Source of the DNA: Herbiconiux ginsengi
GTDB taxonomy: Bacteria; Actinomycetota; Actinomycetes; Actinomycetales; Microbacteriaceae
Assembly: GCF_900107435.1 (NCBI RefSeq)
Contig: NZ_FNPZ01000005.1
Span: 124,001-188,000 of the forward strand
Length of the DNA: 64,000 bases
Direction of reading: 5' to 3'
The notes under the pieces were generated by a model. It saw only the letters and a list, made by a program, of their open reading frames with translations. It ran no database searches and was not told where the DNA came from. The position numbers were made by a program, and so were the translations under genes. This document shows positions 44,563-64,000 of this stretch, piece after piece. The first letter of the stretch is position 1, and every line of letters begins with the position of its first letter.

Positions 44563-44578
44563 TCGACTGCTAGTTCGA
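44563..44578. promoter_or_regulatory. TetR-type operator candidate (site L)
   Basis: TCGACTGCTAGTTCGA with 64 bp to the SnoaL-like start. Left arm perfect, right arm shifted by one. AGTCAATTCTCGACT (44554-44568) upstream of it gives a second, overlapping dyad. This is the last copy toward the right; none is seen in the second island. Confidence 0.58.
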
Positions 44579-44579
44579 C

Positions 44580-46313: not shown

Positions 46314-46464
46314 CAAGCTTGCCGCTCACACTCACAAGGTCGTGGAGTGGCAACGATCGAACAGAGCTCCTCCAGCTCATGACAGCGATCGTGAAGACCG
46401 CGAAGCTGTCTTCAGGACGCATCCGCACCATGCAGTGCTCGTTACGCAACAAAGGGGTTTTACA

Positions 46465-47994
46465 ATGAAGTTCTCCCGTCTCGCGGCCTCAGTCGGTATC
46501 TTCGCGGCGCTCACGGCATCGGTCTCCGGCTGCTCGCCGAGCGCACCCGCCGACGTCGACCAGCCGTCGGATCACGTCCTCACCCTTTCCATGCCCGCAG
46601 CGCCTCCGTCACTGGCTGTGGGGTCGCTCGACCAAGGCGTGTCGTCCTACGTCTGGGCCAGCGTCTACGACTCGCTGCTCACCCGCGACCTCAGCGGCGC
46701 GGTCCAGCCGAGCGTCGCCGAAGAGTACGCGGTCGCCGACGATGGTCTTACCCTGACCTTCACAATCCGCGACGGCATGAAATTCAGCACCGGCGAGCCT
46801 GTGGACGCGGAAGCCGTGGCCGATTCCCTGACTTTCTCGAGCACGGCACCGGCAACCTCAGCCGCGTTCGCCAGCGTCGCCTCCATTGAGGCGACGGACG
46901 AGTCGACGGTCACTTTGTCGCTGAGCAGGCCTGACACGGCATTGCCGTATCAGCTGGCGCAGGCCGCGGGTGTCATCGGTGAGCCCTCAACGCTCGGGTC
47001 GGAGACCGCGGCGCTTGACCCAGTGGGTTCGGGACCTTACGTTCTGGACAACGACGCGACTACCGACGGTTCGACGTACACCTTAGAGCTGCGACCTGAC
47101 TACTGGAACGCGGATGCGTACAGTTTCAAGAAGGTCATAGTCTCCGTGATCGCGGACGCTACGGCCCAGCAGAACGCTCTGCAGGCGGGTCAGCTGGACT
47201 TCATGAGCCTCGCCAACCCTGCCCAGGGCGAGTCGTTGACGGCAGCGGGTTTCACCGTTCAGGAAACCGCGCCCGTCGCGTGGGGTGCCATCGTAATCGC
47301 GGACCGCGCGGGCGAAATCCAGCCTGCGCTCGGAGACGTACGCGTCCGACAGGCGATCAACCTCGCTGTTGATCGCGATGCGATCGTGGAGAAGCTTCTT
47401 GCGGGCGTCGGTGCGCCGACGGAGCAGATCTTCGACCCGGGCTCGGGTGCATACGACGCGGACCTAGACGGCACGTACGCGTATGACCTCGCCGAAGCGA
47501 AGGCGCTGATGGAAGAGGCCGGATATGCCGACGGGTTCACCGTCAGCATGCCCAGTTCCGTCCTGTCACAGACGATGGAGCCCACACTCACTCAGCAGTT
47601 GGGCGAGATCGGCATCACCGTCGAGTGGAAGCCGGTTCCCTTCGACCAGGTCGTGTCGGTGCTGGGATCCAAGACCTACCCGATGTATTGGTTCATCAAC
47701 GGGTACAACGTGCCTCAGATCGTGACCAATGACACGCTGACCCCCACGGGCTATCTGAACCCGTTCGGGGCAACAGATCCGGAGCTGACGGCCCTTCTGG
47801 AGACTGCAGCCGACGCATCAGCAGAGGACGCTGATACCGCGTACCGCGCGGTCAACCAGTGGAGTGTGGACAACGCCTGGTTCGCGCCGCTGTACGCGTA
47901 CGCGCAGCTGGTCGTCACGTCGAAGGCAGTGACCTTCACACCTCGCACCGTCGCCGGTCTCTTGACCGTCGAGCAGTTCCAGCCCGCTTCCTAA
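46465..47994 (+). CDS. ABC solute-binding lipoprotein, family 5 (Opp/Dpp-like)
   Basis: 509 residues from ATG 46465 (AAAGGGG upstream); the frame is open further up but only this start gives a proper signal peptide. Lipobox VSGC with Cys near residue 24. SBP_bac_5 features: LTRDLSGAVQPSVAEEY, LTFTIRDGMKFSTGEPVDAEAV near 100, RQAINLAVDRDAIVEKL near 300. Family 5 proteins bind peptides, nickel or various organic solutes. First gene of a four-gene importer operon driven by the promoter at 46251. Confidence 0.93.
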   Translation: MKFSRLAASVGIFAALTASVSGCSPSAPADVDQPSDHVLTLSMPAAPPSLAVGSLDQGVSSYVWASVYDSLLTRDLSGAVQPSVAEEYAVADDGLTLTFTIRDGMKFSTGEPVDAEAVADSLTFSSTAPATSAAFASVASIEATDESTVTLSLSRPDTALPYQLAQAAGVIGEPSTLGSETAALDPVGSGPYVLDNDATTDGSTYTLELRPDYWNADAYSFKKVIVSVIADATAQQNALQAGQLDFMSLANPAQGESLTAAGFTVQETAPVAWGAIVIADRAGEIQPALGDVRVRQAINLAVDRDAIVEKLLAGVGAPTEQIFDPGSGAYDADLDGTYAYDLAEAKALMEEAGYADGFTVSMPSSVLSQTMEPTLTQQLGEIGITVEWKPVPFDQVVSVLGSKTYPMYWFINGYNVPQIVTNDTLTPTGYLNPFGATDPELTALLETAADASAEDADTAYRAVNQWSVDNAWFAPLYAYAQLVVTSKAVTFTPRTVAGLLTVEQFQPAS

Positions 47995-48000
47995 ACAATG

Positions 48001-48033
48001 GGGTGCGGCGCCGGCGCTGCCGGCGCCGCACCC
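48001..48033 (+). other. Intercistronic hairpin between SBP and permease genes
   Basis: Fifteen-base perfect arms (GGGTGCGGCGCCGGC and its complement) around GCT, six bases after the SBP stop and without a T tract. Such hairpins stabilise the upstream mRNA end and lower downstream expression, giving SBP excess over permease. Confidence 0.65.
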
Positions 48034-48043
48034 AGGGGTTCAC

Positions 48044-48988
48044 ATGATCGCATTCGTTCTGAGAAGGATCGCCACCGGAGTGGTGCTGCTCTTCGTCGTG
48101 ACAACGCTCACGTTCTTCACCATTCAGCTGGCGGACATCCCGGTCGCGCGGAACATTCTCGGCAGCAGTGCCACACCCGAGCAGGTAGCCGCGCTCAACG
48201 CCCAGCTCGGCTTGGATCGCAGCGCACTTGAGCAGTACTGGTCCTGGATCACGGCAGCCGTGCGTGGAGACTTCGGTGTGTCGTACTTCACCAACGAGCC
48301 CGTGGCCGCCGCGCTGGAGAACCGCCTGCCCGTCACCTTGTCGATCGTGCTCCTCGCTCTGATCTTCACGGTCGTGTTCAGCCTCCTCCTCGGTGTGACC
48401 GCAGCATCCCGTGCAGGCGGCACCGTCGACCGCGTTTTGCAGGCCGTGTCCACGGTCAGCTACGTGTTCCCGCCCATCATTCTGGGCATCCTGCTCGTGC
48501 TGGTCTTCTCCATCACTCTGCATTTGGTTCCCGCAACCGGGTACGTCCCGATCGGCACGTCCTTCATCGGATGGTTCGGCAGTGTGCTGCTCCCTGCGGT
48601 CACTCTCATGTTCGCCTCCATCGCCAGCGTCGCCGGGCAAATCCGAGGGTCGATGATCGACGAGCTGCGCCGAGACTACGTCAGGACACTGCGCAGCCGC
48701 GGCGTGCCCGAAGGCACGATCCTTCTTAAGTACACGCTGCGCAACGCCGCATCCCCTGCGCTGACGACCTTGTCGCTCCAGTTCATCGGGATGATCGGCG
48801 GGGCGCTGTTCATCGAGCGCATCTTCGCCCTCTCCGGTTTCGGCACATATTCTTTCAACTCCGCCGTCCAAGGCGACCTGCCCGCGATCCTCGGAGTGGT
48901 CACGTTCAGCGTCATCCTCGTTGTCATCATGAACCTCCTCGTCGACCTCGTCAACGGCTGGCTGAACCCGAAAGCGCGTATCCAATGA
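48044..48988 (+). CDS. ABC importer permease, DppB/OppB-like
   Basis: 314 residues with six hydrophobic helices; MIAFVLRRIATGVVLLFVVT is the standard DppB start and the EAA-loop region (DYVRTLRSRGVPEGTILLKY) lies near 205-225. Inner-membrane half of the transport channel. Overlaps the next gene by 4 bases (ATGA). Confidence 0.93.
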   Translation: MIAFVLRRIATGVVLLFVVTTLTFFTIQLADIPVARNILGSSATPEQVAALNAQLGLDRSALEQYWSWITAAVRGDFGVSYFTNEPVAAALENRLPVTLSIVLLALIFTVVFSLLLGVTAASRAGGTVDRVLQAVSTVSYVFPPIILGILLVLVFSITLHLVPATGYVPIGTSFIGWFGSVLLPAVTLMFASIASVAGQIRGSMIDELRRDYVRTLRSRGVPEGTILLKYTLRNAASPALTTLSLQFIGMIGGALFIERIFALSGFGTYSFNSAVQGDLPAILGVVTFSVILVVIMNLLVDLVNGWLNPKARIQ

Positions 48989-50796
48989 GCGTCCTCATCC
49001 CCGACTCAGTCGAAAACATCCGGCGGCCGAATGTGTTTCGCCGGCTCCTAGGGAACCCGATGGCTGTCGGATCGATGGTGCTGATCGCCGCGGTGATCGT
49101 GCTCGGACTTCTCGCGCCAGTGCTGTCCCCGCACAGCCCCAACTTCAGCTCCCTCGACGCAGTCAACGCTCCCGTCGGCACTCCCGGCTATCTCTTGGGC
49201 GGGGACAGCAGCGGCCGCGACATCTTCGCGAGGCTCCTCGCTTCGGTCAACACAGCCATGCTGTCGGCGATCACCGGCGTCGCGGTCGCTCTGCTGATCG
49301 GGATCCCATTCGGACTTATCTCCGGATATGCCAAGCCTCGAACGGATTCGGTGTTCTCCTGGGTATTTAACCTGCTCATGACCTTCCCCGCACTCGTGCT
49401 GCTCATCGTGGCTTTCCCCATCACCGGGGGGTCCTACGTCGTGATGATGGCCATCTTTGGTTTCCTCTTCAGCCCCTCCATCTTCCGTCTTGTCCGCAAC
49501 CTGGTTGTCGCCGTCAAGCGCGAGCTGTACATCGACGCGGCACGCGTCTCGGGACTGTCCACGGCACGCATTCTGCGCCGACACATCCTCCCGGCCGTCC
49601 GAGGCCCCATCGTCATCACCGCGTCGTTCCTGGCTGGTGTGGCGATAGCTGTTCAAGCGGGACTGGCGTTCCTTGGCCTGGGCACCAACGACGTGCCCAG
49701 CTTCGGCAGCATGACCGCTGACGCCTTCGCGAACCTCTACGTCTACCCCATCCAGTTCCTGTGGCCCACCATCATGCTTGCCATCCTCAGCGGAGGCTTC
49801 GTCCTCATCGGCAATGGGCTGCGAGACGCGCTAGAAGACTCCTCCTTGGCGCCCACAAAGGCCCTGCGTCCCTCAAACCCGGAAGCCCGGCATGCAACTG
49901 CCCGCGCGCCGCACGGTCCCGCCCAAACCTCCGAGGGACCCTCACCGCTGCTGCGTATCCGCAATCTTCGCGTCTCCTACCCCACCACCGGCGGACAGAT
50001 GAAGCAGGTCGTCAACGGGATCTCCCTGGATCTCAACGCGGGTGGCGTCCTCGGCCTGATCGGCGAATCGGGTTCCGGGAAAACGCAGACGGCGTTCGCG
50101 GTACTGGGACTGCTCACTCAGGAAGCGCGCGTGGAGGCGGACGAGTTCACCCTCGACGGACATGACCTCCTGAGCGGGGACGCCGGGGACCTTAAGCGGC
50201 TCCGCACGTCGCTGCTGGCGTATGTTCCCCAGGAGCCGATGTCCAACCTCGCGCCCTCGTTCACCGTCGGCGCTCAACTCGTCGAAGGCATCCGGGCCAC
50301 CAAAGGCGGCACCAAGCGCGAAGCCCGACAGCTGGCTCTCGATCTGCTTCGACGAGTCGGAATCGTGGACCCCGCGCGCACCTATCGTTCCTACCCACAC
50401 GAGATATCCGGAGGAATGGCGCAACGCGTCCTGATCGCCGGCGCCATTGCCGCCGGCCCCCGACTCCTGATTGCCGATGAACCCACGACCGCGCTTGATG
50501 TCACTGTCCAAGCCGAGATTCTCGATCTTCTCCGCAACCTTCAGACGGATCTCAGCATGAGCGTCCTGCTCGTGACACACAATTTCGGTGTGGTCGCGGA
50601 CCTGTGTGACGAAGTCGCGGTCATGCGATCGGGCGAGATCGTTGAGGCCGGCAGTTACCGAAACCTTTACCGGCACGCCGAGCACGTGTATACAAAGCAG
50701 CTGATCGGGGCGATCCTCGACGAAGACACATACCGCACCGACCCCGTCGCCACATCTGCTTACCCCGACCATTCCGAAGGGAGCGTGGGACGATGA
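48985..50796 (+). CDS. Fused ABC permease-ATPase (DppC-DppD fusion)
   Basis: 603 residues. Residues about 10-290 are a DppC-type permease ([16 protein letters not shown] near 70, EAA-like [17 protein letters not shown] near 190). After a Pro/Ala-rich linker, residues about 318-603 are a DppD-type ATPase: Walker [12 protein letters not shown] near 360, signature [13 protein letters not shown] near 472, Walker [13 protein letters not shown] near 494. Dpp ATPases normally are separate proteins. The second importer of this window also has a permease-ATPase fusion, with an unrelated permease. Confidence 0.9.
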
Positions 50797-51617
50797 CGAC
50801 GCTACTAGCAGTTCGAGACCTAAAAGTGCAGTACCCCGGCAAAGGATTCCGGCAGCCGCCCAGCGAAGTCCTCCACGGCGTTTCGCTCACGATCGCGGCC
50901 GGCGAAACGCTGGGCCTAGTCGGCGAATCTGGCTCCGGAAAAACGACCCTGGGCAGAGCAGTCCTTGGGCTCGTTGAGACCAGCGGAGGATCCATCGAGT
51001 TCAACGGGCAACCGATTCAGGATCTGTCTGCCCGGTACCGTCGCAAACTCGCCAAGGACATTCAGGTGGTCTTCCAAGACCCCTACACATCCTTGAATCC
51101 TGCGCTGCTGGTCTCCGACATCCTGAGCGAACCTCTCCTCGCTCAGGGCCGGTCACGGCAAGACGCGGCCGCCTCAGTTGCAGGTTTGCTTGACCGGGTC
51201 GGGCTGCCGAAAGACGCCGGCAACCGGTACGCACGCGAATTCAGCGGAGGACAACGCCAACGCGTCGCGATCGCGCGCGCACTCGCCATCGCACCGAAAC
51301 TCATCGTGTGCGATGAGGCCGTGTCGGCACTGGACCTTGTCACTCAAGCACGCGTCCTGGACCTCCTGATCGAGATCCAACGCGAAACGAAGGTCGCGTA
51401 CCTCTTCATTTCCCACGACCTGACAGTCGTCCGGCACATCAGTCACCGCGTGGCAGTCATGTACCGCGGTGACATCGTTGAAACGGGCACAGCGCGCGAC
51501 GTCACCACAAGCCCTTCCAACCCGTACACACAACAATTGCTCCTCGCCGCCCCCGTCGCAGACCCAGCCGAACAAACCAAGCGGCGCCACGCCAGAATCG
51601 CGCTACGCACTTCCTAG
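50793..51617 (+). CDS. ABC importer ATPase, DppF/OppF-like
   Basis: 274 residues, shorter than the usual 310-330 because the C-terminal oligopeptide-transporter extension is reduced. Walker [12 protein letters not shown] near 46, signature FSGGQRQRVAIARAL near 149, Walker B LIVCDEAVSALD near 170, DLTVVRHISHRVAVMYRG near 207. Overlaps the fusion gene by 4 bases. Ends the importer operon; I saw no terminator in the 239 bases before the Fic gene. Confidence 0.92.
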   Translation: MTTLLAVRDLKVQYPGKGFRQPPSEVLHGVSLTIAAGETLGLVGESGSGKTTLGRAVLGLVETSGGSIEFNGQPIQDLSARYRRKLAKDIQVVFQDPYTSLNPALLVSDILSEPLLAQGRSRQDAAASVAGLLDRVGLPKDAGNRYAREFSGGQRQRVAIARALAIAPKLIVCDEAVSALDLVTQARVLDLLIEIQRETKVAYLFISHDLTVVRHISHRVAVMYRGDIVETGTARDVTTSPSNPYTQQLLLAAPVADPAEQTKRRHARIALRTS

Positions 51618-53416: not shown

Positions 53417-54247
53417 TCAGCGCAGCGAAGCTGAGAGACTCTCCCACGCGTTGTGGGCGGCCTGGTGGGGTGGTTTCTGCCAGAGCAGGTCGTTGAAGAT
53501 CTCGACTTCGATCGGTCCGGTGTAGTGGGCGTCGGCGGTGGCGGAGAGGATGCCGGTGATGTCGATGATCCCGTCGCCCGGAAGCACGCGGGTGAGGAAT
53601 GGTCCGTGTTCGTGCTCCCACGACCAGTCCGCGACCTGTACTGCTGCGATTCTGTTTTCCGCTCCGGCCCGGCGGATCTGCTCGATAAGCTCAGCGTCCC
53701 ACCACACGTTGAAGGTGTCGACGACTACCCCTGCCGTTTCGGGAGGAAACGGGGCCACGACATCAAGCGCGTGGCGGAGGGTGTTCACGACGGACCGACG
53801 GGCGGTGAACATAGGGTGCAGCGGTTCGAGTCCGAGCCGCACCCCGGCTTCCCCAGCTACGGTGGCGATGTCGGCGAACACCTCCGTGACCCGCGTGCGA
53901 GCTCCGGCAAGATCACGCGAGCCGGGCGGTAGTCCCCCGGCGAGCACGACCAACGCGGCGGCTCCGAGCTGATGCGCGTCATCGATCGCACGTCGTGCGT
54001 CTGCGACCGTGTGCCGATCGGTAGAAAGCACACACCGGCACAAGGTGGACACCTGAAGGCCGTGATCTGCCACGACCTTGGCCGCCTGCCTCGCCGTCTT
54101 TCCATCGTAGGTTTCTCGCCACAGCCCCACGTTTCGTGCTCCAGTGGCCGCGATCGCGTCGAGGGCGACGTGCAGGGGTGGATTTCCGAGGGTGACGGTG
54201 TTGATCGACAGGCGTGTTTCTGCCACTCGGCGTGGAAGTGCGTTCAC
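53417..54247 (-). CDS. Sugar phosphate isomerase/epimerase-like TIM barrel
   Basis: 276 residues from GTG 54247, which overlaps the GMC oxidoreductase stop (GTGA). AP-endonuclease-2-like TIM barrel: RLSINTVTLGNPPLHVALDAIAATG, GLEPLHPMFTARRS (metal Glu), VVDTFNVWWDAE and VEIFNDLLW with the last metal ligands. Members are epimerases, isomerases or lyases acting on sugars, keto-sugars and inositols. With a GMC oxidoreductase next to it, it may process the keto product. Last gene of the minus-strand operon. Confidence 0.85.
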   Translation of the reverse strand: MNALPRRVAETRLSINTVTLGNPPLHVALDAIAATGARNVGLWRETYDGKTARQAAKVVADHGLQVSTLCRCVLSTDRHTVADARRAIDDAHQLGAAALVVLAGGLPPGSRDLAGARTRVTEVFADIATVAGEAGVRLGLEPLHPMFTARRSVVNTLRHALDVVAPFPPETAGVVVDTFNVWWDAELIEQIRRAGAENRIAAVQVADWSWEHEHGPFLTRVLPGDGIIDITGILSATADAHYTGPIEVEIFNDLLWQKPPHQAAHNAWESLSASLR

Positions 54248-55806
54248 AGCGTGCTCTGTTGAAGTAGCCAGGCCGCTTGCCGGAGCGCAAGAGCGACTAT
54301 TGTGAGGGTCGGGTTGGCGGCGGCGCTGGTGGTGAACACGGACCCGTCCGAGACAAACAGGTTGGGTACCCCGTGCACGCGCCCCCACCTGTCTACGACG
54401 CCGTCGTCGGGGTGGGCACTCATGCGGGCGGTACCGAGGTTGTGGCCGGACGGCGTCGGAGGGGCAGTCGAGACGCTGGCAGCGTCCACAGCGCCATACA
54501 GGGCACGGGACTTTGTATAGGCGTCTTCGCGCATCGCCACGTCGGCAGGATGATCGTCGTAGTGCACATTGGGTACGGGCAGGCCATGCTGGTCGACCCG
54601 GTCACCGAGTGTGATCCGATTGGTCGCCTGGGACATGTCCTCACCGCTGATCCAGATGCCGGCCGTGTGGGAGTAGTGCTCCATCATTTCAGCGAACTCG
54701 CGCCCCCAACCATGCGGCTGCGCGAATCGGGCGAAGGCGATGGGGCCGAGCGCGATCAGTTCAAGGTAGTAGCCCCCCGCAAAAGCACGATGCGGGTCGT
54801 GGCGGGACTCATCGGCGATAATCCCAGCCATGGATTCGCCCCGGTGGAAGTTCACTGGCCGTTCGAACCGGGCGAACACGTTCCCGGACACGTGGCGTGT
54901 GTAGTGTCGCCCCACCTGATCGGAGTGATTGCCGAGCCCGGCGGGGGAACGTCGACTCGTAGATAGCAGCAGCAGCCGTGGAGTTTCGATCGCGTTGCCG
55001 GCAACAGCAACGGCCCGGGCCCGCTGGAACTGTACGGCTCCGGAACCGTCCAGGTAAGCCACCCCGGTGACCCGCCCGTTCTCACCTTGTTCGATGGAGA
55101 ACGCGTGCGAGTTGGCGCGCAGATCAAGGTTGCCCGTGGCGATGGCCCGCGGTATCTCGCTGACCAGCGGCGACCATTTGGAACCCTGTCGGTCGCCCTG
55201 GAAGTTGAATCCGTCCTGGACGGTACCGGGGCGACCGTCGTACGGGTCGACGTTGGTCGCGTAGGGCCCGGTGGCGAAGTGCCGGTAGCCCACTCTCTCG
55301 GCGCCTGCGGCGAAGACTTTGTAGTTGTTGTTCGCGGGCAGCGGCCGCCGGCCGTGCCGGTGCGATACACCGAGCCGACGCTCCGCTTCGGCGTAATGGG
55401 CGATCAGGTCGGGCAGGCCAATAGGCCAGTCCGCAATGCTGGTGCCGCTGATCTCACCGTAGGTTGTGCGCGCCGCGAACTCGTGCGCTTTGAACCGGGG
55501 GGTGAGTCCGGTCCAGATAAGTGTGGTCCCACCCACTGCTTTGACCATGTTCGCTGGACTACCGGGAAAATCGTTCCCGAGCTGCCAGGTACCGGAGGTT
55601 GTGCGCAGGTCGTTCCATCCCAGGAGGCGTTGCGCTTCGCGTTCATCGTTGACGAAGTCCTCCTTTGCCAGCCACGGGCCAGCTTCTAGCATCACGACCT
55701 TCTTGCCGGCCTGGGTGAGAACCGAGGCGAGGGTTGCGCCACCAGGACCGCTTCCAATGACAACGAGGACGTCTTCATCAGCGAGATCGAATCGTCTGCT
55801 CACCAC
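54244..55806 (-). CDS. GMC-family FAD oxidoreductase, large subunit
   Basis: 520 residues. FAD-binding GSGPGGATLASVL near residue 18, GGTTLIWTGLTPR near 92, and C-terminal SGHNLGTARM near 450 and AANPTLTIVALA near 495 with the His/Asn catalytic pair of GMC enzymes. It oxidises an alcohol or sugar hydroxyl. There is no Tat signal, so it is cytoplasmic. Paired with the small subunit-like gene at 55,800 (7-base overlap), as in gluconate/sorbitol-type dehydrogenases and actinobacterial glycoside 3-oxidases. No cytochrome subunit is present. Confidence 0.88.
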   Translation of the reverse strand: MVSRRFDLADEDVLVVIGSGPGGATLASVLTQAGKKVVMLEAGPWLAKEDFVNDEREAQRLLGWNDLRTTSGTWQLGNDFPGSPANMVKAVGGTTLIWTGLTPRFKAHEFAARTTYGEISGTSIADWPIGLPDLIAHYAEAERRLGVSHRHGRRPLPANNNYKVFAAGAERVGYRHFATGPYATNVDPYDGRPGTVQDGFNFQGDRQGSKWSPLVSEIPRAIATGNLDLRANSHAFSIEQGENGRVTGVAYLDGSGAVQFQRARAVAVAGNAIETPRLLLLSTSRRSPAGLGNHSDQVGRHYTRHVSGNVFARFERPVNFHRGESMAGIIADESRHDPHRAFAGGYYLELIALGPIAFARFAQPHGWGREFAEMMEHYSHTAGIWISGEDMSQATNRITLGDRVDQHGLPVPNVHYDDHPADVAMREDAYTKSRALYGAVDAASVSTAPPTPSGHNLGTARMSAHPDDGVVDRWGRVHGVPNLFVSDGSVFTTSAAANPTLTIVALALRQAAWLLQQSTL

Positions 55807-56261
55807 GGCTCACCGTCGCCTAGCGTGTGGTCGGGCCCGATCTCGATCATTGGCTCGGTGGATTCCGCAATGCGTGGTTCGGGCAGCCATGTCAGATCGT
55901 TGAATCCGCGGTGGAGGTATCCGCCAAGGTGATGCGACGGGCCTTCATATCCGATTCGCGCCCACACCGCCGGATCCCCGTAAATGCTGGGGATGACCAG
56001 TTGACGGAAGGCGCGGAACCAGTCTTCATCAGTTTGACCTTCCAGCCATGTCAGCAATAGCTCGTCGCTCGCATCCGGCTCCCTGATCTGTTCGAGCGCG
56101 CGGCGAATCCGCAGACCGACAAGAGGGTCGGTGGCAGCGTGTGCCAGCGCATCTGCGGCGGCACACCGGTAGACCTCGTCGGGGACGTCATGCGGAAAGG
56201 CGATCCGCGCGACGCGTGCCCCGATAGAGACGAGCTCGTCTGCGACTGAGTCGTGTTGCAT
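55800..56261 (-). CDS. Gluconate 2-dehydrogenase subunit 3-like small subunit
   Basis: 153 residues, helical at the N-terminus, ending in SIYGDPAVWARIGYEGP and HLGGYLHRGFNDLTWLPEP, which resembles the C-terminus of subunit-3-type partners of GMC dehydrogenases. No signal peptide, unlike the periplasmic gluconate dehydrogenase subunit 3. Gene overlap with the GMC subunit supports a complex. Family assignment is by local similarity only. Confidence 0.7.
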   Translation of the reverse strand: MQHDSVADELVSIGARVARIAFPHDVPDEVYRCAAADALAHAATDPLVGLRIRRALEQIREPDASDELLLTWLEGQTDEDWFRAFRQLVIPSIYGDPAVWARIGYEGPSHHLGGYLHRGFNDLTWLPEPRIAESTEPMIEIGPDHTLGDGEPW

Positions 56262-56284
56262 AAGAATGTTGTGTCGGTTGTGGC

Positions 56285-56716
56285 TTAGCCCAGTGCTGCC
56301 ACACCCGCCTCGGCGATCAGTTGGTCCTGCTCGTTGCTGCCTCCGCTGACACCTACCGCTCCGACGACATCACCGTCAGAGAGTACGGGGAGGCCGCCCG
56401 CGAGCGGGGTGAGGCGGTCGATGCTCTTCAGCCCGTAGCCGAATTCGGGGTCGCCCTGAGAGATGCCGTACCAGGCGTTGGTGGGTGTGTTGGTGCTGGC
56501 GGCGCTGAAGGCCTTATCTTGCGCGACCTGCACACTGGCAAACGGGGCATCGTCAAGACGTTCGAGCAGGATGAGGCGTCCCGCCGCGTCAGTGACCGCG
56601 ACGGTCACGGGGATGGAAAGGGACTGGGCGTGTTCGATAGCGGCACGCACGATGGCACGCGCCCCGTCGATAGTGAGCTGGCGAGTGGTGCGCACGAGGG
56701 CGTTGTGGGTAGTCAT
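56285..56716 (-). CDS. GlcG/HbpS-like small protein
   Basis: 143 residues of the GlcG/PduO-C/HbpS fold: VAVTDAAGRLILLERLDDAP, KAFSAASTNTPT, GGLPVLSDGDVVGAVGVSGG and DQLIAEAGVAAL are the standard conserved segments. Such proteins bind heme or corrin-like cofactors, or accompany alcohol and glycolate dehydrogenases; the exact role is usually unknown. GGAGAACCACA precedes the ATG. No export signal. Confidence 0.85.
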   Translation of the reverse strand: MTTHNALVRTTRQLTIDGARAIVRAAIEHAQSLSIPVTVAVTDAAGRLILLERLDDAPFASVQVAQDKAFSAASTNTPTNAWYGISQGDPEFGYGLKSIDRLTPLAGGLPVLSDGDVVGAVGVSGGSNEQDQLIAEAGVAALG

Positions 56717-56736
56717 TGTGGTTCTCCAGGTGGTGG

Positions 56737-57765
56737 TTAGGGGATGAGGAGGGGACGGCCCACGACCCGGCCAGCTCGCATGTCGCCGATGGCTGACTGG
56801 AAGTCTTCGAGCGCGTAGCTGGTGTACGGAGATCGGATTGCAGGTGCGCGGGTGTGGACGAGCGCTTCGAGTTCGGTGTGAGTGCCGACGAGGTTGAACA
56901 GGATGGTCAATTCGGCAACGACCGCGGTGAGTGTGTCGATGGTGAGGGTTCCTCCGGCGCCGACGATGGAGACCGTGCCGCCTCGGGCGGCGAGCGCGAC
57001 CGCGATGTCGGCGCTATCGGACGAGCCGACGAAATCGAACACCAGATCGTATCCATCCGGCGCAATCGTGCGTGCTTGATCCTGAGCGCGTGCGCCAACG
57101 CTCGTGACGACCTCGTTGGCGCCGAGCTCGCGGGCCAGAGCGGTCTTTGCGGGGTTCGGTTCCAACGCGACGATCCTGCCAGGAATTGCCGCGCGCAGGA
57201 GCTGCAGGCCGAACAGGCCAACGCCTCCTAAACCGATCACGGCGGCGTTGGTACCGGTCGGAAAAGTGCGGAGCGCCCTCTGGACCGCATGGTAGGCAGT
57301 CAGGCCCGCGTCGGTGAGTGGGCACAGCGCGAGCAGATCGGCGTCCGCGTCCACCCGGACGAGTGCTCGCTCGTCGACACGAATGTACTCCGCCCAGCCG
57401 CCTAGTGTGGACCCGTCCACGCCGGGGAAGGTTCGCGTGGGGCAGTACATGTCGGCGCCGCGTCGGCACGCGGCGCACACCCCACAGGTGGAGACCGGGT
57501 GAAGGATGACCGCATCACCGATGGCGACCGCCGTGACAGCCTCGCCAACTTCGCGCACCCACCCGGTTGTTTCATGGCCCGGCACGTAGGGGAAGTGCGG
57601 CACACCGTACGCGGCCACCAAACCCCCTTGCATCGTCTCGATATCGGTCTGGCACACCCCTGCCGCCGCGACCTGCACGATCACATCTGTCGGACGACGC
57701 AAAAGAGGCGTTTCGATATCCCTGAGCGCCACACGCCCGAATTCTTCGATGACGACCGCCTTCAC
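56737..57765 (-). CDS. Zinc-dependent alcohol dehydrogenase (MDR)
   Basis: 342 residues. Catalytic zinc ligands C38, H64/E65 (GHETTG) and a Cys near 148; structural zinc C94, C97, C100 and C108; NAD(P) motif GLGGVG near 175. GTG start overlaps the DapA-family gene stop (GTGA). Oxidises a primary or secondary alcohol to aldehyde or ketone. Fits between aldolase and GMC steps in the operon, but the substrate is not inferable. Confidence 0.92.
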   Translation of the reverse strand: MKAVVIEEFGRVALRDIETPLLRRPTDVIVQVAAAGVCQTDIETMQGGLVAAYGVPHFPYVPGHETTGWVREVGEAVTAVAIGDAVILHPVSTCGVCAACRRGADMYCPTRTFPGVDGSTLGGWAEYIRVDERALVRVDADADLLALCPLTDAGLTAYHAVQRALRTFPTGTNAAVIGLGGVGLFGLQLLRAAIPGRIVALEPNPAKTALARELGANEVVTSVGARAQDQARTIAPDGYDLVFDFVGSSDSADIAVALAARGGTVSIVGAGGTLTIDTLTAVVAELTILFNLVGTHTELEALVHTRAPAIRSPYTSYALEDFQSAIGDMRAGRVVGRPLLIP

Positions 57766-58775
57766 GCCGTCACCTCGAACGGGGCAAAGGTGCGATCCAC
57801 GGCGGCGAGCATGCGTTCTCGGTCTGCCTCCGCCACCGGCCGCAGAGGGGCGCGAAGGTGGGCCGCGTCGATGACACCAAGGTGCACGAGAGCCTCCTTG
57901 AGGCGAGAACGGTTGTCGCGGATCGGTTCGCCGTACATCACTGAGGCTAGCGGCGCGATCCGCTCAGCGTCCCAACGGATCGCCTCGGCGATACGGCCGG
58001 CGTGCACCAGGTCATGCAGCCGTAGAGTTGCCGCGCCTGCCAGGCCCGCGAAACCGAGGAGGCTGCCGTGAGCGCCGAGGATGTAAGACTCGAGGATGAA
58101 GTTGTCGCATCCGGTGAGAAGCTCCACGTTGGGGAAACTCTGCGTCAGCAAGTCGCGTGTGCGCACGTAGGCGCGCGCATCGAACGAGGCGTCCTTGACC
58201 GCAGCGATCAGGTCCGGCACCGCGCACAGCGGCGCGAGGGTGTCCGGTGTCAGGGTGACGCCACCCACATCGGCCATCAGGCTAAATGCGATCAGTGGAA
58301 GCCCCGCCTCCCGAGTGGCGGAGTAGTACCCGACAAGCGCGTCTGTGCTCACAGTCGTACCCGCGAACGCGGGCGGGGTGAACATGAGCAGAGCATCCGT
58401 CCCTGCCGTGGCAAGATCGCTCGCAAGCTGCTTCGCGGCACGGTCGTGGGTGGCGATCAGCCCTGACACGAGGTAGACGGTGTCCCCGAATTCTTCCCGC
58501 ACCGCGTCGGCCGTCCGCAGCCGCTCCGGGTTGTCCAAGTGTGCTCCTTCGCCGGTGTCGGCGTTGATCGCGAAGGCGGTTATGCCCTGCTCATCTGCCA
58601 GCCACCGCAAATATCGGCGGAAGGCAACGAAGTCAGGGTCTCCGTTGGCCGCCATCGGAAGGGCGACGGATGCGATCACCTTGTGGGACGCGATTGTCAT
58701 GTGGTGGGGTCCATTCTCTTCGGTCTCTTCCGCGAGGGTCGCGTTGGCGGGTGGATGGTTGCGGAGCTCTGTCAC
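57762..58775 (-). CDS. Dihydrodipicolinate synthase (DapA) family aldolase/lyase
   Basis: 337 residues if started at GTG 58775, which overlaps the RibB stop (GTGA) like its neighbours; an internal ATG at 58700 gives 312 residues, closer to the family length, but with a weak ribosome site. TIM barrel with Schiff-base Lys K194 in AVKDASFDA and YYSATREAGLP near 150. NADTGEGAHL is the usual GTTGE-type substrate loop in variant form. The family includes lyases for keto-acids and aromatic or heterocyclic intermediates, so it need not make dipicolinate. Confidence 0.88.
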   Translation of the reverse strand: MTELRNHPPANATLAEETEENGPHHMTIASHKVIASVALPMAANGDPDFVAFRRYLRWLADEQGITAFAINADTGEGAHLDNPERLRTADAVREEFGDTVYLVSGLIATHDRAAKQLASDLATAGTDALLMFTPPAFAGTTVSTDALVGYYSATREAGLPLIAFSLMADVGGVTLTPDTLAPLCAVPDLIAAVKDASFDARAYVRTRDLLTQSFPNVELLTGCDNFILESYILGAHGSLLGFAGLAGAATLRLHDLVHAGRIAEAIRWDAERIAPLASVMYGEPIRDNRSRLKEALVHLGVIDAAHLRAPLRPVAEADRERMLAAVDRTFAPFEVTA

Positions 58776-59446
58776 GGCACACGCTGCCTAGACGACGCGG
58801 GCCGATGCGGCTGCGTCCTATCGCGCTCATTCAGCCAATCGATCAGGCACTCGATAGAGGTCACGGGCAGGCCGTCCCGATCACCGGTGGTCAACAGTTC
58901 CGCCATCCGCATGGTGGAGCCATCGCTCGAGATCATCTCGCCGATTACGCCTACCGGCGGCAGGCCGGCCGCGCGCAGGAGCTCCACGGCAGCTTCAGTG
59001 TGGCCGGCTCGTTGGCGGACACCGCCGTCCACGGCGCGCACGGGCAGGATGTGTCCGGGTCGGATAAACGACGTAGCCGTCGAGTCCGCGGCCCCCAGAA
59101 GATTCAGCGTACGTGCCCGGTCGTGAGCGCTGATGCCGGTACCAATACCCGTCGCGGCGTCAATCGACACCGTGTAGGCCGTGCGACGAGGGTCCTGGTT
59201 GTCGCGGACCATGAGGGGAAGCTCAAGGGCGTCTGCGAGCTCCCCCGGCAGTGGCGCGCACAGATACCCGGAGGTGTTGCGGACCATCCACGCGATCCAG
59301 TGCGGTGTGGCAAGAGCCGCGGACATGATCGCGTCGCCTTCATTCTCCCGGTCGGCGGCGTCACAGACGAGGACGGGACGGCCGGCACGGAGAGTCTCGA
59401 GCACGTCGGGAACGGACGCCAGCGTGGATGGTGTGCTCACCGTCAC
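58772..59446 (-). CDS. ribB: 3,4-dihydroxy-2-butanone 4-phosphate synthase
   Basis: 224 residues. Motifs CDAADRENEGD (R33-E36), TGISAHDR near 105, GHTEAAVELLRAAGLPP near 150 and GVIGEMISSDGSTMR near 165 are those of RibB, with no GTP cyclohydrolase II domain. Makes the four-carbon riboflavin precursor from ribulose 5-phosphate. Its place between flavin reductase and aldolase, with GTGA overlaps on both sides, suggests it boosts FMN supply for the two-component monooxygenase rather than housekeeping synthesis. Confidence 0.9.
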   Translation of the reverse strand: MTVSTPSTLASVPDVLETLRAGRPVLVCDAADRENEGDAIMSAALATPHWIAWMVRNTSGYLCAPLPGELADALELPLMVRDNQDPRRTAYTVSIDAATGIGTGISAHDRARTLNLLGAADSTATSFIRPGHILPVRAVDGGVRQRAGHTEAAVELLRAAGLPPVGVIGEMISSDGSTMRMAELLTTGDRDGLPVTSIECLIDWLNERDRTQPHRPASSRQRVP

Positions 59447-59937
59447 GTCAGAGTCCGGAAGGCGCGGTCGAAAAACATGAGGGGACGCCGCGTCGTTCCC
59501 TCGATCAGGTCGCGGACGCCACCGACCGCGATCATGTGGTCCCCACCGTCGTGAGTGGCAACCAGCTCACACTCGATCCACGCGACACACCCCGCAAGAC
59601 GAGGCACCCCGGACCGTCCGGGTGTCCACTCGACGTTCTCGAATCTGTCGGTGCCCGATTTGGCGAAGGCGAGTGCCAACTCCTCCTGATGCTCCCCCAG
59701 CACGTTCACCACGAACCGACCTGAGTCGACAATCTTCGGCCAGGACGTGGAGGTGCGGGACACATTGACCGAGATCAACGGCGGAGCGAGCGACAGGGAC
59801 GAGAACGCCTGCAACGTGAAACCCACAGGGCCGTCATCAGTCATTCCGGTGATCACAGTCAACCCCGTGCCGAACAGGGCCATAGTTTCGCGCATAGCCG
59901 CCGCGCCGACAAGTTCCCGTGTTGCTTCCTGAACCAC
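59443..59937 (-). CDS. Flavin reductase (FMN reductase, DIM6/RutF-like)
   Basis: 164 residues: MALFGTGLTVITGMTDDGPVGFTLQAFSSLSLAPPLISVNVS is the typical split-barrel start, spread over residues about 18-60. Reduces FMN with NAD(P)H for the divergent group C monooxygenase at 60,251. GTG start preceded by GAGG. First gene of the eight-gene minus-strand operon. Confidence 0.9.
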   Translation of the reverse strand: MVQEATRELVGAAAMRETMALFGTGLTVITGMTDDGPVGFTLQAFSSLSLAPPLISVNVSRTSTSWPKIVDSGRFVVNVLGEHQEELALAFAKSGTDRFENVEWTPGRSGVPRLAGCVAWIECELVATHDGGDHMIAVGGVRDLIEGTTRRPLMFFDRAFRTLT

Positions 59938-60054
59938 GATGTTCCTCCACTCCTAGATCACCACGAGAAACACCGTCCCATGTGTGAAGGTTGCAGTTCA
60001 AGGGCGGAATGCCGGAAGAATCGACGCAGCTGAATGTGAAAACCCCACACCCAT

Positions 60055-60082
60055 TGGTCAAGCAAATGTGGCAGCTTGACCA
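60055..60082. promoter_or_regulatory. Inverted repeat in divergent promoter region
   Basis: TGGTCAAGC (60055-60063) and GCTTGACCA (60074-60082) are perfect 9-bp arms with a 10-base spacer. The 313-bp region 59,938-60,250 between the flavin reductase and monooxygenase genes holds no gene and this is its only clear symmetric element. Likely binding site of the PucR-type regulator encoded nearby. Confidence 0.55.
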
Positions 60083-60250
60083 TTGTCCTCACCATGCCAC
60101 CCCGCAAAACTGAACCATGATCGAACGACATCGTCGATGAACATGACGGTGATGAGATTCCGGGGCGACGATGCACCGACGTTCGAGACAGGTACTGGAT
60201 CCAACTCGCTCAGGGATGAGGGGGTTGGACGGACTGAAAGAGGATGATGA

Positions 60251-61459
60251 ATGGTCAACAACGGCTTCAAGACTGTCGAGACGATGCGCGGCCCCTTCGA
60301 CCCGGGCGGACAGCCGGACCTGGAAACGGGACAGCCCCTGCAGCTCGGATTCTTCGGCTGGAACGTACGCGCGGGGATGACGGCATCGAAGGCGGTCCTC
60401 ACGGACGAAGCGCGGCTCGCTGACTATTGGGTGTGGGAGCGCTCAAGCAAGCTCATCAAGCTGGCCGAAGATATCGGCTTCGATTACCAAGTGCCGTTCG
60501 GGCGGTGGATCGGTGGGGGCGGCGCCACCAACTTCAACGGCGCGGCGCTGGATTTCCTGGCCAGCGCTGCCGCCACCGCGCCGATCACCGAAAGGATGGG
60601 TGTGATCTCGACCGCACACATCACCTACGGTTTCCACCCCCTGCATATCGCGAAGTTCGGCGCCACCATCGATCACATCTCCAACGGTCGGTGGGGTTTG
60701 AACATCGTGTCGGGCTATCAGGCACAGGAGCGTGCGGCGTTCGGCCGCCTCGACGAACTTGACCACGACGAAGCGTACGACATGGCCGAAGAATTCGTCG
60801 TCCTCATGAAACACCTCTGGCATGAGAAGGAACGCTTCAACTTCGAGGGCAAGTACTACCAGTCCTATGGTGCCGTCGTCGCTCCTGGCCCGTCCCGCAA
60901 CCCTCGGCCGGTGTTGATGAACGCCGGCGGTTCACCCAAGGGCATCGACTTCGCGGTGCGTAACGTCGACGTCGTCTTCACCCTGGCCCCGTCGCTCGAG
61001 GGATACCGGGAAAAAGTGTCCCAAATTCGTGAGCTGTCCACGAAATACAACCGAAAAGTGAAGATCGCGACCATGTCATGGGCATCGATCGAGGCCACCG
61101 ACGAACTGGCCGAAGAACGCCTGGCATGGTACGAGGACCAGATCGACCTGGAGGCCGTCTACGGCTACTACCAGGCCCTCGCCGGAATCGACACCTTCGG
61201 CGCCGGCGACACATCCCCGAAATCAGACGACTACCCCGAGTACAAAGGACTGACCAAAGAGTTCGTCAAAACCTTCAGCCTCGGCATGACATCTCCCCGG
61301 CTCTACGGCTCCCCCGAAACCGTCGCGGAAAAGATTCGTGCACTCCATGATGTCGGCATCGAAAGCCTGTTCATCAACTTCGCCGACCCGCAGAAGGGCC
61401 TGCACCAGATGCAGGACGATGTCTTGCCGATCCTCCGCAAAATGGGGCTTCGCAAGTAG
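60251..61459 (+). CDS. Group C FMNH2-dependent monooxygenase (RutA/SfnG-like LLM)
   Basis: 402 residues. LLM TIM barrel with the layout of two-component monooxygenases: LQLGFFGWNVRAGMTA, LAEDIGFDYQVPFGRW near 75, GVISTAHITYGFHPLHIAK near 115, HISNGRWGLNIVSGYQ near 140, FEGKYYQSYG near 195 and NAGGSPKGIDFA near 222. Family knowledge: uses free FMNH2 and O2 to attack sulfones, pyrimidines or other heterocycles. The flavin reductase gene is divergent and adjacent. Substrate unknown; RutA, SfnG and pyridine monooxygenases all share this architecture. Confidence 0.9.
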   Translation: MVNNGFKTVETMRGPFDPGGQPDLETGQPLQLGFFGWNVRAGMTASKAVLTDEARLADYWVWERSSKLIKLAEDIGFDYQVPFGRWIGGGGATNFNGAALDFLASAAATAPITERMGVISTAHITYGFHPLHIAKFGATIDHISNGRWGLNIVSGYQAQERAAFGRLDELDHDEAYDMAEEFVVLMKHLWHEKERFNFEGKYYQSYGAVVAPGPSRNPRPVLMNAGGSPKGIDFAVRNVDVVFTLAPSLEGYREKVSQIRELSTKYNRKVKIATMSWASIEATDELAEERLAWYEDQIDLEAVYGYYQALAGIDTFGAGDTSPKSDDYPEYKGLTKEFVKTFSLGMTSPRLYGSPETVAEKIRALHDVGIESLFINFADPQKGLHQMQDDVLPILRKMGLRK

Positions 61460-61504
61460 ACCACCGATCAGAACAGACAGGTTCGCAATGCCGCCGCCCT
61501 CACC

Positions 61505-62842
61505 ATGTACGCACTGCAGGTCTGGGGAATCCTCTCGAGCGCGTGGGTGCGCCTACCGGAAACCGAACCGGATGAGAAAGCAAATGAGGAACAGTCGCGC
61601 GGCGATGTCACAGGCGGGTCTGAGCTGAGCGCCTTGCCTCTGCGGCGGTACGATGCCCGGGTGGCGTCCGAGTCCAAACTGAACTACACCCCCGATGTTG
61701 AAGCGATGACCACGCTCATCGTCGAGAAGGTGTGGAACGAGTACCCCGGATACTCTTCTGAGTTCTTTCAGCAGACGGATTTGATCCCCTCCACGAGGGC
61801 AAATCTGAACTTGGCGTTGCGTGTGCTGCGGGATGGGAAGGTCCCCACCTATGAGGACCTCTCCCACGCCCGCAGCGTCGGGGCAATTAGGGCGCGCCAG
61901 CTGGTGCCGCTGGAATCAGTCATCCAAGCCTTCCGGCTCACGGAACGGGTGCTGATGTTGGACTTGTTCGCGGACACGCGCGAGTTGGTCGATTTCCGGG
62001 CCGGGACAGTCGCTGATCTTCTGACCTCCACTTTTGATGCGCTCACACAACAGATAATCAATTCGTACCGCGAAACGTTCACCGCTGCCGAAGAGGCCCT
62101 GCGATCAGCGGAGAACCAACTGGTATCGACCGTCGCGAGCGGCCTGACCCTGAACGACGTCGAGATGGAAGACTGGCGACGGCTGCTCTCCGTAGACGTG
62201 GAGACCCCCGTCGTGTCGATCGCGATCTTATGGCCACCGGGGGTTGACCAGCTGGAAACGCAACGCGCACTGCGACGGCTCAAAACCCGGCTTGAACTGA
62301 CCAATCATGCACGGGTGCTCACCGGCAACGTGGCAGACGCAACCCTTGTGCTCGTCGTCGCAGCGGAGGAAGCAGATCAGGGGGACGCCGCTCTGAGAGC
62401 GGCGATCGAGGCGGCCAGGATTCCTGATGGGTGCGCGGTGGGAGTAGGGCAGCCAGCGCAGAACCTTCGCACCGCCAGCGCCGGCTGCCAACAATCCATC
62501 GATGCGGCAAAGGTTGCCGAGACCCGGCCCGCCGAGCGCGTTGCTTTCTACCATGAGGTGCTCATCGAACAGCTGCTGCGGGCACGGCCGCACATGAGCA
62601 ACCTCCTCGCGGCATCCCGGCTCAACGGTTTGGACAGCAACCCGCAGCTTCGAGAGACGCTCGTGTCCCTCATTGACAACAATCTCTCCCAAGCCAAGGT
62701 CGCCAGGCAGCTGTATGTGCACATCAATACTGTCGCGAACCGGGTGCGGCGAATACACGAGCTCACCGGGTTCGACCCGCTGAACCTCACAGACCTGATT
62801 GAGATGGCCGTCGCTCTCCGCTGGGAAAAACTTCAGGACTGA
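61505..62842 (+). CDS. PucR/CdaR-family transcriptional regulator
   Basis: Up to 445 residues. GGDEF-like middle region (VSIAILWPPGVDQLETQRAL) and C-terminal PucR helix-turn-helix with LIDNNLSQAKVARQLYVHINTVANRVRRI and TGFDPLNLTDL. The start is unsure: ATG 61505 is weak, and GTG 61661 would give about 393 residues beginning ASESKLNY. PucR-type proteins activate catabolic genes in response to substrate, often in purine or amine metabolism. Follows the monooxygenase gene by 45 bases. Confidence 0.88.
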   Translation: MYALQVWGILSSAWVRLPETEPDEKANEEQSRGDVTGGSELSALPLRRYDARVASESKLNYTPDVEAMTTLIVEKVWNEYPGYSSEFFQQTDLIPSTRANLNLALRVLRDGKVPTYEDLSHARSVGAIRARQLVPLESVIQAFRLTERVLMLDLFADTRELVDFRAGTVADLLTSTFDALTQQIINSYRETFTAAEEALRSAENQLVSTVASGLTLNDVEMEDWRRLLSVDVETPVVSIAILWPPGVDQLETQRALRRLKTRLELTNHARVLTGNVADATLVLVVAAEEADQGDAALRAAIEAARIPDGCAVGVGQPAQNLRTASAGCQQSIDAAKVAETRPAERVAFYHEVLIEQLLRARPHMSNLLAASRLNGLDSNPQLRETLVSLIDNNLSQAKVARQLYVHINTVANRVRRIHELTGFDPLNLTDLIEMAVALRWEKLQD

Positions 62843-62863
62843 CCCTCCCCAAACTGCCTCAAA

Positions 62864-62893
62864 ACCGCCGGTCAAGACATCCAGATCGGCGGT
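62864..62893 (+). terminator. Weak hairpin after the regulator gene
   Basis: ACCGCCG and CGGCGGT, 7-bp arms with a 16-base loop and no long T tract, 22 bases after the PucR stop. Confidence 0.35.
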
Positions 62894-62939
62894 CTTCGAG
62901 CGCGCCGCCGTGCGACTCAACTCGCTTCGCCGACAGGGG

Positions 62940-62964
62940 GCAACTGTGACGATCGCACAGTTGC
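62940..62964. promoter_or_regulatory. Inverted repeat upstream of the SRPBCC/permease genes
   Basis: GCAACTGTG and CACAGTTGC, perfect 9-bp arms with 7-base spacer, in the 315-bp gap 62,843-63,157. It could be an operator or a stem in the leader. No open frame in the gap has support. Confidence 0.45.
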
Positions 62965-63157
62965 GATGCGTCATTTCGTAGGCCGTTGATCCATTCCTTG
63001 CGACCGTGGAAAGTCCCATGCTGAGACAGCCCCGGGAGCGCGGCCCGTACCCACCCGTCCCGCTCAGCCCGGTGCGAATATCACAATTTCGCTCGTTCCT
63101 GACGGCACGGTCACCTACCGCACCGCCACGGTCACGAGCTAGACGGAAGGAACTGCC

Positions 63158-63610
63158 ATGCCCCACTCATTCGCCAGCACCGTCGTCGAGGCACCACCAA
63201 ACATCGTCTGGGACTTCTTGAAGAATTTCAACGGAACTCCGGACTACCTCGCGCTCGTCGCAGGGAGCATCATCACTGATGATCAACCCGTCGACCTCCT
63301 CGGCTGTGAACGCGTCATTACCCTCACCGATGGACGCGTCGTCAAGGAAACCCTCGTCGCACGCGACGACGTCGCTCGAACCCTGACCTATCACCTGACC
63401 GAAGGGCCATTTCCCTTCTCCAACTACTACTCCACGATGCGCGTCACCCTCATCTCCGACACCGGAGGCAGCTTCGTCGACTGGAGCAGCACCTACGACA
63501 GCGACGCCGCAGACGCCGCAGCAAACAACCACCTGCTTGCCGATCAGATCTACGGCGCAGGCCTGCAGCAGGTCAAAGTCCGCTTCGCGTCAACCCGCAT
63601 CCCTCACTGA
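63158..63610 (+). CDS. SRPBCC (START/polyketide-cyclase-like) protein
   Basis: 150 residues: STVVEAPPNIVWDFLKNFNG, then VVKETLVARDDVARTLTYHL and VDWSSTYDSDA are the standard Bet v1-like fold pattern. Hydrophobic-ligand-binding; some members are cyclases or dehydratases. ATG 63158 with GGAAGG upstream. Cotranscribed with the permease gene 35 bases on. Confidence 0.85.
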   Translation: MPHSFASTVVEAPPNIVWDFLKNFNGTPDYLALVAGSIITDDQPVDLLGCERVITLTDGRVVKETLVARDDVARTLTYHLTEGPFPFSNYYSTMRVTLISDTGGSFVDWSSTYDSDAADAAANNHLLADQIYGAGLQQVKVRFASTRIPH

Positions 63611-63645: not shown

Positions 63646-64000
63646 ATGTCCACCACCCGAACAGGCGAGAACTCGCTGCCCCCACTCGTTGTCCGAGACA
63701 CCGACGACCCGGACGTCGTCGCCGACGCTGGCCGCGATGACTACGCCGAGCACGTGGTGCCCCGAACCTGGCGCATCGGGCGTGCCGGGATGGCGTTCGC
63801 CTGGTCCTCGCTGCTCACCGCGATGTTCACCGTGGTGCTCGCCGCGACTGCAGCCTCGATCGTCGGGACCGCCGATGCCATCATCGGGATCGCCCTGGCC
63901 AGTGCCACCTACGGGGTGATTAACTACTTCATGCAGAAGACTGCCACCACATCGGGACTCACCGTCGGCCTCTTCTCTCGAAGCCTCTTCGGCTACTCCG
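63646..64000 (+). CDS. NCS1-type nucleobase/cytosine permease, 3'-truncated
   Basis: First 118 residues of a membrane transporter; the gene runs off the window. AAAGGAG stands seven bases before ATG 63646. After a hydrophilic N-terminus come FAWSSLLTAMFTVVLAATA and a second helix with IIGIALASATYGVINYFM, then TSGLTVGLFSRSLFGYS, a pattern seen in NCS1 (purine/cytosine/hydantoin) transporters. Together with a PucR regulator and RutA-like enzyme this suggests a nitrogen heterocycle substrate. Confidence 0.75.
   Translation, partial: MSTTRTGENSLPPLVVRDTDDPDVVADAGRDDYAEHVVPRTWRIGRAGMAFAWSSLLTAMFTVVLAATAASIVGTADAIIGIALASATYGVINYFMQKTATTSGLTVGLFSRSLFGYS

Follow-up and report, generated by a model that had tools for sequence, protein, structure and literature searches.

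What compound is broken down by a catabolic gene set that fits no named pathway is the question raised by the right-hand end of a 64,000-nt stretch of the Herbiconiux ginsengi genome (contig NZ_FNPZ01000005.1, positions 124,001 to 188,000; hereafter the window), where a first-pass annotation had placed a catabolic island at 53417-63610. We read the locus as a horizontally transferred, PucR-regulated catabolic island built around a two-component flavin monooxygenase and equipped with a sugar-type arm, and give this reading about an even chance of being correct. Its gene framework is well supported, and the island is conserved, mobile and uncharacterised. No family-library match names a pathway for it, and searches of the literature on the gene combination and on both host species returned no description of the cluster, in line with the earlier view that it matches no known pathway.

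The island consists of two divergent units with a glycerate kinase gene attached. The minus-strand unit encodes, in order of transcription, a flavin reductase (FR; 59443..59937, Flavin_Reduct 141 bits), a stand-alone RibB (3,4-dihydroxy-2-butanone 4-phosphate synthase; 58772..59446), a DapA-family lyase (DapA1; 57762..58775, DHDPS PF00701 89 bits), a zinc alcohol/polyol dehydrogenase (ADH; 56737..57765, ADH_N 97 bits), an HbpS-like protein of the GlcG/NahX type (56285..56716, PF03928 116 bits), a small GMC partner that is subunit-3 like by position (55800..56261), a GMC oxidoreductase of the FAD-glucose/fructose dehydrogenase type (FAD, flavin adenine dinucleotide; 54244..55806, PF05199 96 bits and PF00732, both over cut-off) and a TIM-barrel protein resembling sugar isomerases/epimerases (53417..54247, AP_endonuc_2 113 bits). 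On the plus strand lie the LLM-class two-component flavin monooxygenase (60251..61459, Bac_luciferase 171 bits), the remnant of a second DapA-family gene (DapA2; 61484..61582), a PucR-type regulator (61661..62842, HTH_30 58.7 bits against a cut-off of 27), an SRPBCC protein (63158..63610, Polyketide_cyc2 57 bits; best PDB match XoxI 3cnw, 54 bits) and a 545-residue permease whose N-terminal part (63646..64000) is in the window and which runs past its end. The glycerate kinase gene (PF02595 350 bits) lies outside the window, 258 bp past the permease gene and convergent with it. Four minus-strand junctions overlap by 4 bp (FR/RibB, RibB/DapA1, DapA1/ADH and, with a revised isomerase start, GMC/isomerase), the partner and GMC genes overlap by 7 bp, and at the two remaining junctions the genes stand 20 and 23 bp apart. 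The isomerase probably starts at GTG 54247 instead of the first-stage 54388, because the longer frame runs into the GMC gene, and PucR probably starts at GTG 61661 instead of 61505, because the longer frame crosses the DapA2 remnant; PucR orthologues were called at 393-402 residues. The families named in the first-pass annotation (LLM monooxygenase, DapA, ADH, GMC, TIM barrel, SRPBCC and PucR) are all encoded where it had put them. Its gene list was incomplete, having missed the flavin reductase, RibB, the HbpS-like protein and the glycerate kinase beyond the window. A conserved stretch between the FR and LLM genes was considered as an operator and found unsupported (one exact copy in the window, loose matches below chance), and no tRNA was found in the 64-kb window.

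The arrangement recurs elsewhere. A scan with six short peptide patterns from the LLM protein over genome contigs of 84,980 species, in which only close relatives were detectable, returned five loci in four genomes: two in Microbacterium rhizomatis (98% and 92% identity), one in Aeromicrobium ginsengisoli (94%), one in Nocardia carnea (62%) and one in a proteobacterial metagenome-assembled genome (MAG; 54%). All 13 core genes, glycerate kinase included, stand in the same order at both M. rhizomatis loci with 59-98% identity, the kinase gene being reversed in the second, and the arrangement is therefore not due to chance. Both loci carry the additional DapA2 gene between the LLM and PucR genes. 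A. ginsengisoli has 11 of the 13 core genes in rearranged order. It lacks RibB and DapA1, so that neither is essential, and carries after its LLM gene a different DapA-family gene, whose product has 33% identity with DapA2 and 41% identity with the Rhodococcus counterpart; owing to the 33% identity, it is treated here as a presumably separate paralogue. Several of its other proteins fall far below its LLM identity (GMC 59%, HbpS 58%, ADH 51% and kinase 38%). Across the related islands the GMC protein is 93, 84 and 59% identical, and the isomerase is 65-75% identical in M. rhizomatis. Of the plasmid records matching LLM, 1363 lie below 60% identity and two reach the 60-80% band, namely Rhodococcus jostii RHA1 pRHL1 and R. 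opacus pRho-G13. LLM identity is 54-62% in Rhodococcus, Nocardia and the MAG. The clusters of the first two share LLM, FR, ADH, HbpS and a DapA-family gene; they differ in having another GMC and a class II aldolase, with a LysR regulator in RHA1. The neighbourhood search that had been suggested as a check thus gave conserved co-occurrence, and no exact synteny with a characterised cluster was found, the matching clusters being themselves uncharacterised.

The gene block appears to have moved horizontally between soil bacteria, because LLM is 94-98% identical while RibBA, the one housekeeping protein on which this comparison rests, has only 65% identity between H. ginsengi and M. rhizomatis and, in two pieces, 52% and 55% between H. 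ginsengi and A. ginsengisoli. At the DNA level, one M. rhizomatis contig matches in blocks from 46.2 kb of the window to ~24.8 kb past the window's end. Mean third-position GC of open reading frames (ORFs) of at least 150 residues is 0.853 left of 45 kb (n=36) and 0.746 right of 46 kb (n=36, to the contig end); the region with the lower value has its left boundary at 44560-46267. The pathway is rare and recently mobile, with its gene set now defined and with named host strains, among them M. rhizomatis JCM 30598 and A. ginsengisoli JCM 14732. The LLM superfamily as such is widespread, occurring in 79 of 99 genomes, this one included, with a best match of 37% identity in the other 98. At E 1e-70, the LLM clade was found in its own genome only, at 1/396 in the phylum set, 1/16 in the genus set and 1/396 in the order set (own genome counted, sets overlapping, and at most four candidates scored per genome in the phylum and order sets). 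Seven stretches around LLM relatives of 30-37% identity in five other genomes held, besides LLM genes, just one FR (33%) and one GMC (24%) match. An unannotated Burkholderia plasmid encodes a 32% LLM and a 32% DapA match ~17 kb apart.

The LLM protein scores under every NCBIfam subfamily cut-off, including those of the RutA pyrimidine monooxygenase (TIGR03612, 107.1 bits against 498.3) and the SfnG dimethylsulfone monooxygenase (TIGR04021, 168.7 bits against 382.95). Since SfnG is both its closest solved structure (121 bits) and its closest NCBIfam model, the enzyme could be thought to desulfonate or cleave an organosulfur compound as SfnG does. A Caballeronia LLM relative adjoins SfnB, and sulfur-type neighbours occur beside a relative of 34% identity. 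Such neighbours are absent here and no sulfur gene was recognised in the core, and with the large shortfall in the SfnG score we consider this idea very improbable. The flavin reductase is HsaB-like with a score under the HsaB cut-off. Together with RibB, it would define the chemistry as two-component flavin oxygenation.

RibB is the member of the island that reaches furthest beyond it. It passes TIGR00506 (189.5 bits, cut-off 177.45), retains the DRENEGD and GHTEA stretches, and is 78% identical to the RibB half of the housekeeping RibBA encoded on contig C11 of the same genome. Among plasmids, 307 records had a RibB match, of which 25 were listed and 18 of those were inspected; the first six loci were chosen by eye, one of them because the listing named a flavin reductase, the rest were further annotated rows, and seven rows (H126, H136, H137, H141, H144, H146 and H150) fell outside the inspected set. 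An annotated flavin reductase gene adjoins RibB in 11 of the 18 loci, with an LLM gene in view in five of the 11; two further loci have genes for an NAD(P)H-dependent oxidoreductase and an LLM protein nearby, and four are ordinary rib operons. The remaining one, p2MP of Arthrobacter sp. 68b, has two adjacent unannotated RibB pieces (53% and 57%, L078:9001-9550), with an LLM gene at a distance of 2.4 kb and a flavin reductase gene at 4.2 kb. Near-duplicates occur among these loci (H128/H129, H147/H148 and H139/H142/H143). The LLM proteins of R. rhodochrous, M. branderi, R. oxybenzonivorans, p2MP and Paracoccus, and the Paracoccus SsuD, are 21-30% identical to the island LLM, and the pairing of RibB with flavin reductase therefore probably arose more than once. 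A report on the ipp operon of Rhodococcus sp. D-6 lists a co-induced RibB-like ORF of 214 residues that lies between the genes for the oxygenase and the reductase and has the same log2 fold change as the oxygenase (4.46); the word "riboflavin" is not used in its main text (PMC12442392).

A different role for RibB, as a catabolic enzyme recruited to act on a ketose-like intermediate, would be consistent with the overlap of its gene with DapA1 as well as with FR, and with the joint absence of RibB and DapA1 from the Aeromicrobium copy. We think this quite unlikely, given the close resemblance to the housekeeping RibB half with both motif stretches intact and the repeated pairing of RibB with flavin reductase where the LLM proteins are unrelated or there is none. 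The supply of riboflavin to the FR/LLM pair, which we prefer, is the most general point of the analysis: if a riboflavin-precursor gene is often built into operons that consume free reduced flavin, such a gene would mark flavin-limited oxygenase pathways and should help when these are moved into other hosts.

The sugar-type arm is represented first by the GMC protein, which best matches FAD-glucose and fructose dehydrogenases (6a2u 139.3 bits, 7w2j 127 bits) and is not closest to the C-glycoside/pyranose oxidase type (7dve, which we take to be a C-glycoside GMC enzyme, 60.6 bits; 8qve 65.9 bits). No cytochrome c subunit of the FAD-glucose/fructose dehydrogenase complex was found among the island genes. 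The small partner had been proposed as a subunit 3, and this stands as far as position goes, since, on three plasmids used for comparison, the frame directly preceding a GMC gene of this type has 39-41% identity to it; no family backs the name, as neither Pfam nor NCBIfam gave a match, and a fold search from a weak model gave 9jqa_B at E 6.6 and nothing at E 0.001. Of 450 plasmid records matching GMC, neighbourhoods were read for three GMC-pair plasmids and Paracoccus. Second, the isomerase finds its best PDB matches in 7vpf, 3qc0 and 3ju2. The first-pass annotation had taken the GMC/isomerase pair as a hint of sugars or glycosides, and this hint gained weight: the GMC gene and its partner co-cluster with a glycerate kinase gene on plasmid pAO1, and the isomerase gene does so on a Glaciihabitans plasmid. 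Third, DapA1 keeps the Schiff-base lysine, K194 being invariant in the six aligned proteins. The aligned position at which tyrosine is catalytic in DapA is occupied by Phe164 in all six (position assigned by eye), and DapA1 is below the DapA equivalog cut-off (66.9 against 206.15 bits). DapA relatives on two other plasmids lie in unrelated clusters; on Paraburkholderia aromaticivorans pBN1 (L052:9007-11399), a distant DapA-family relative stands directly before a dihydropyrimidinase gene. The HbpS-like protein best matches NahX (9jth, 87.5 bits) and has relatives of 38-43% identity adjoining the Rhodococcus and Nocardia LLM genes; the ADH orthologues in these clusters are 47-48% identical.

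The second DapA-family gene has been deleted in H. ginsengi. The alignment to M. rhizomatis skips from L021:11249 to 12038 (8 window bases being counted on both sides), and ~33 C-terminal residues of DapA2 are still recognisable at 61484-61582 (64% identity to DapA2 residues 261-293), while the gene is intact in both M. rhizomatis copies; other DapA2 matches in the H. ginsengi genome are 28% (DapA1 itself) and 26% identical. As a result of the deletion, the pathway may be impaired in this genome. Going further, the whole island could be decaying and non-functional here, the more so as a Fic gene and the region of an IS481-type transposase occupy gaps of the M. rhizomatis match. We consider this unlikely, because all other core frames are intact, DapA1 remains, and the Aeromicrobium copy has a single DapA-family gene at that place. 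The Fic/DOC-family gene (51857-52633, minus strand) looks like a later insertion on account of its position in the gap. The transposase gene (L008:14485-15357, minus strand) lies between the glycerate kinase gene and a glycosidase group.

The transporter and the regulator had been read as a hint of nitrogen heterocycles, and it is here that the main alternative arises: a pyridine, pyrimidine or similar ring would be imported by an NCS1-like permease, sensed by PucR and opened by LLM in the manner of RutA or pyridine monooxygenases. PucR is present, and the NCS1 label survives as a remote match to TIGR00800; the score, however, is 21.7 bits against a cut-off of 353.1, and the gene starts only beyond the interval first given for the island. 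The permease, 85-91% identical in three related islands, has no Pfam or PDB match, and its predicted model is poor (predicted local distance difference test, pLDDT, 34.5). A Hydantoinase_B end piece stands directly before the MAG LLM gene, and plasmid p2MP, whose LLM presumably has a pyridine role, combines LLM, FR and RibB pieces; the island LLM nevertheless shares only 29% identity over 118 residues with the p2MP protein, which falls short of orthology, and scores poorly against RutA as given above. Isochorismatase and allophanate hydrolase genes, 14-23 kb past the window and common to one M. rhizomatis copy, would also suit a nitrogen compound. They belong to a urea/allophanate-type group with MFS and ABC importers (L060:8619-19712, 13-24 kb past the window), in which allophanate hydrolase and UAAP1 are over cut-off and two isochorismatase-type hydrolases are BiuH-like below cut-off. 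The isochorismatases, ~14 kb past the window, score 28 and 45 bits with the RutB model, whose cut-off is 378, and no RutB isochorismatase is present in the island core. In the transferable core common to all copies, no hydrolase that would release nitrogen was recognised. This and the remoteness of the NCS1 match weaken the nitrogen hint, and we judge a nitrogen heterocycle to be an unlikely substrate, though one with real points in its favour.

Other genes flank the core. A glycosidase group 5-12 kb past the window (L060:521-7780) encodes GH3, GH43 with an F5/8 domain, an MFS transporter and a 716-residue protein with a weak GH65 match. Both this and the urea/allophanate group are treated as probable neighbours rather than island parts, because just one of the two M. 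rhizomatis copies has them. An SBP family 5 ABC importer identified with Pfam (46267..51617, plus strand) is likewise a neighbour shared with one M. rhizomatis copy only.

A carbon-and-oxygen substrate is favoured, because glycerate kinase is linked in four of four copies (this genome, M. rhizomatis twice and A. ginsengisoli) and the core lacks a recognised nitrogen-releasing hydrolase. Most probably, the compound is an oxygen heterocycle or lactone that derives from a sugar and is rich in hydroxyl groups, or else a small molecule with a glycosyl group, and this is the weakest point of our proposal; with low confidence, we place the oxygen-heterocycle or sugar-like class slightly ahead of the nitrogen heterocycle. 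Of the earlier "heterocycle or glycoside", the sugar side was thus strengthened and the nitrogen side weakened. Whereas the divergent units and gene content are read from the DNA itself, the mechanism follows from predicted functions. The permease would import the substrate and PucR would sense it. FR would make reduced flavin, with which the LLM oxygenase would cleave or hydroxylate the substrate, and the extra RibB would raise the riboflavin supply of this pair without being a pathway step itself. The GMC/partner complex and the zinc ADH would oxidise hydroxyl groups, the DapA-family lyase would split or dehydrate a keto acid via a Schiff base, the isomerase would adjust a sugar-like intermediate, and one product would reach central metabolism as glycerate. 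We also put forward, tentatively and as a view that will more probably fail than hold, that this distinct LLM clade opens a sugar-derived oxygen heterocycle to fragments that end as keto acids and glycerate, and that extra RibB or RibBA genes have repeatedly and independently been built into two-component flavin monooxygenase operons to supply the cofactor.

Several points weigh against the main proposal. It rests on predicted functions, the substrate and activities being putative. RibB and DapA1 are missing from the A. ginsengisoli copy, and DapA2 has been lost here. Nitrogen compounds are suggested by the remote NCS1 similarity, by PucR and by the Hydantoinase_B piece next to the MAG LLM gene. 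Two of the four plasmid regions read around a GMC pair or the isomerase, the GMC-pair regions of Pararhizobium and Thioclava, are without DapA, isomerase and kinase, and the pAO1 and Glaciihabitans DapA proteins gave no match to DapA1 or DapA2 at E 1e-4. Furthermore, the RibB plasmid loci were partly picked by eye and include several near-duplicates.

Parts of the island resemble known systems. The pAO1 sugar cluster, which we take to be the oxidative xylose pathway of Mihasan et al. 2013, shares GMC (60%), the small partner (39%), a DapA-family gene and glycerate kinase, in the order GMC and partner, aldehyde dehydrogenase, Gfo/Idh, DapA-family and glycerate kinase genes; it differs in that Gfo/Idh and aldehyde dehydrogenase replace the zinc ADH, and it has no LLM, FR or RibB in the stretch read. 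The Glaciihabitans plasmid row (Gfo/Idh, DapA-family, isomerase, glycerate kinase) shares the isomerase (45%), glycerate kinase (46%) and an adjoining DapA-family gene; the part of it that was read has no recognisable LLM, FR, RibB or GMC gene. For both plasmids the DapA likeness is at the family level only. Riboflavin catabolism was considered and rejected. The riboflavin catabolic (Lum) pathway starts with the flavoenzyme riboflavin lyase and also includes a P450, a thiamin-dependent decarboxylase, a xanthine oxidase and Rieske enzymes (PMC12746152). The lyase is a distant relative of the island LLM (63 bits), and the gene set differs, none of the other enzymes being encoded among the island genes. 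With the SfnG, RutA/RutF and NtaA systems, the island has in common the LLM fold family, a separate flavin reductase and a nearby regulator and importer, whereas its LLM is below the NCBIfam subfamily cut-offs and it adds RibB, HbpS and the sugar-type arm. Finally, the ipp operon (PMC12442392) has an HsaA-like oxygenase instead of an LLM and acts on 2-isopropylphenol, and yet, like the island, it combines a stand-alone RibB-like ORF with oxygenase and flavin reductase genes.

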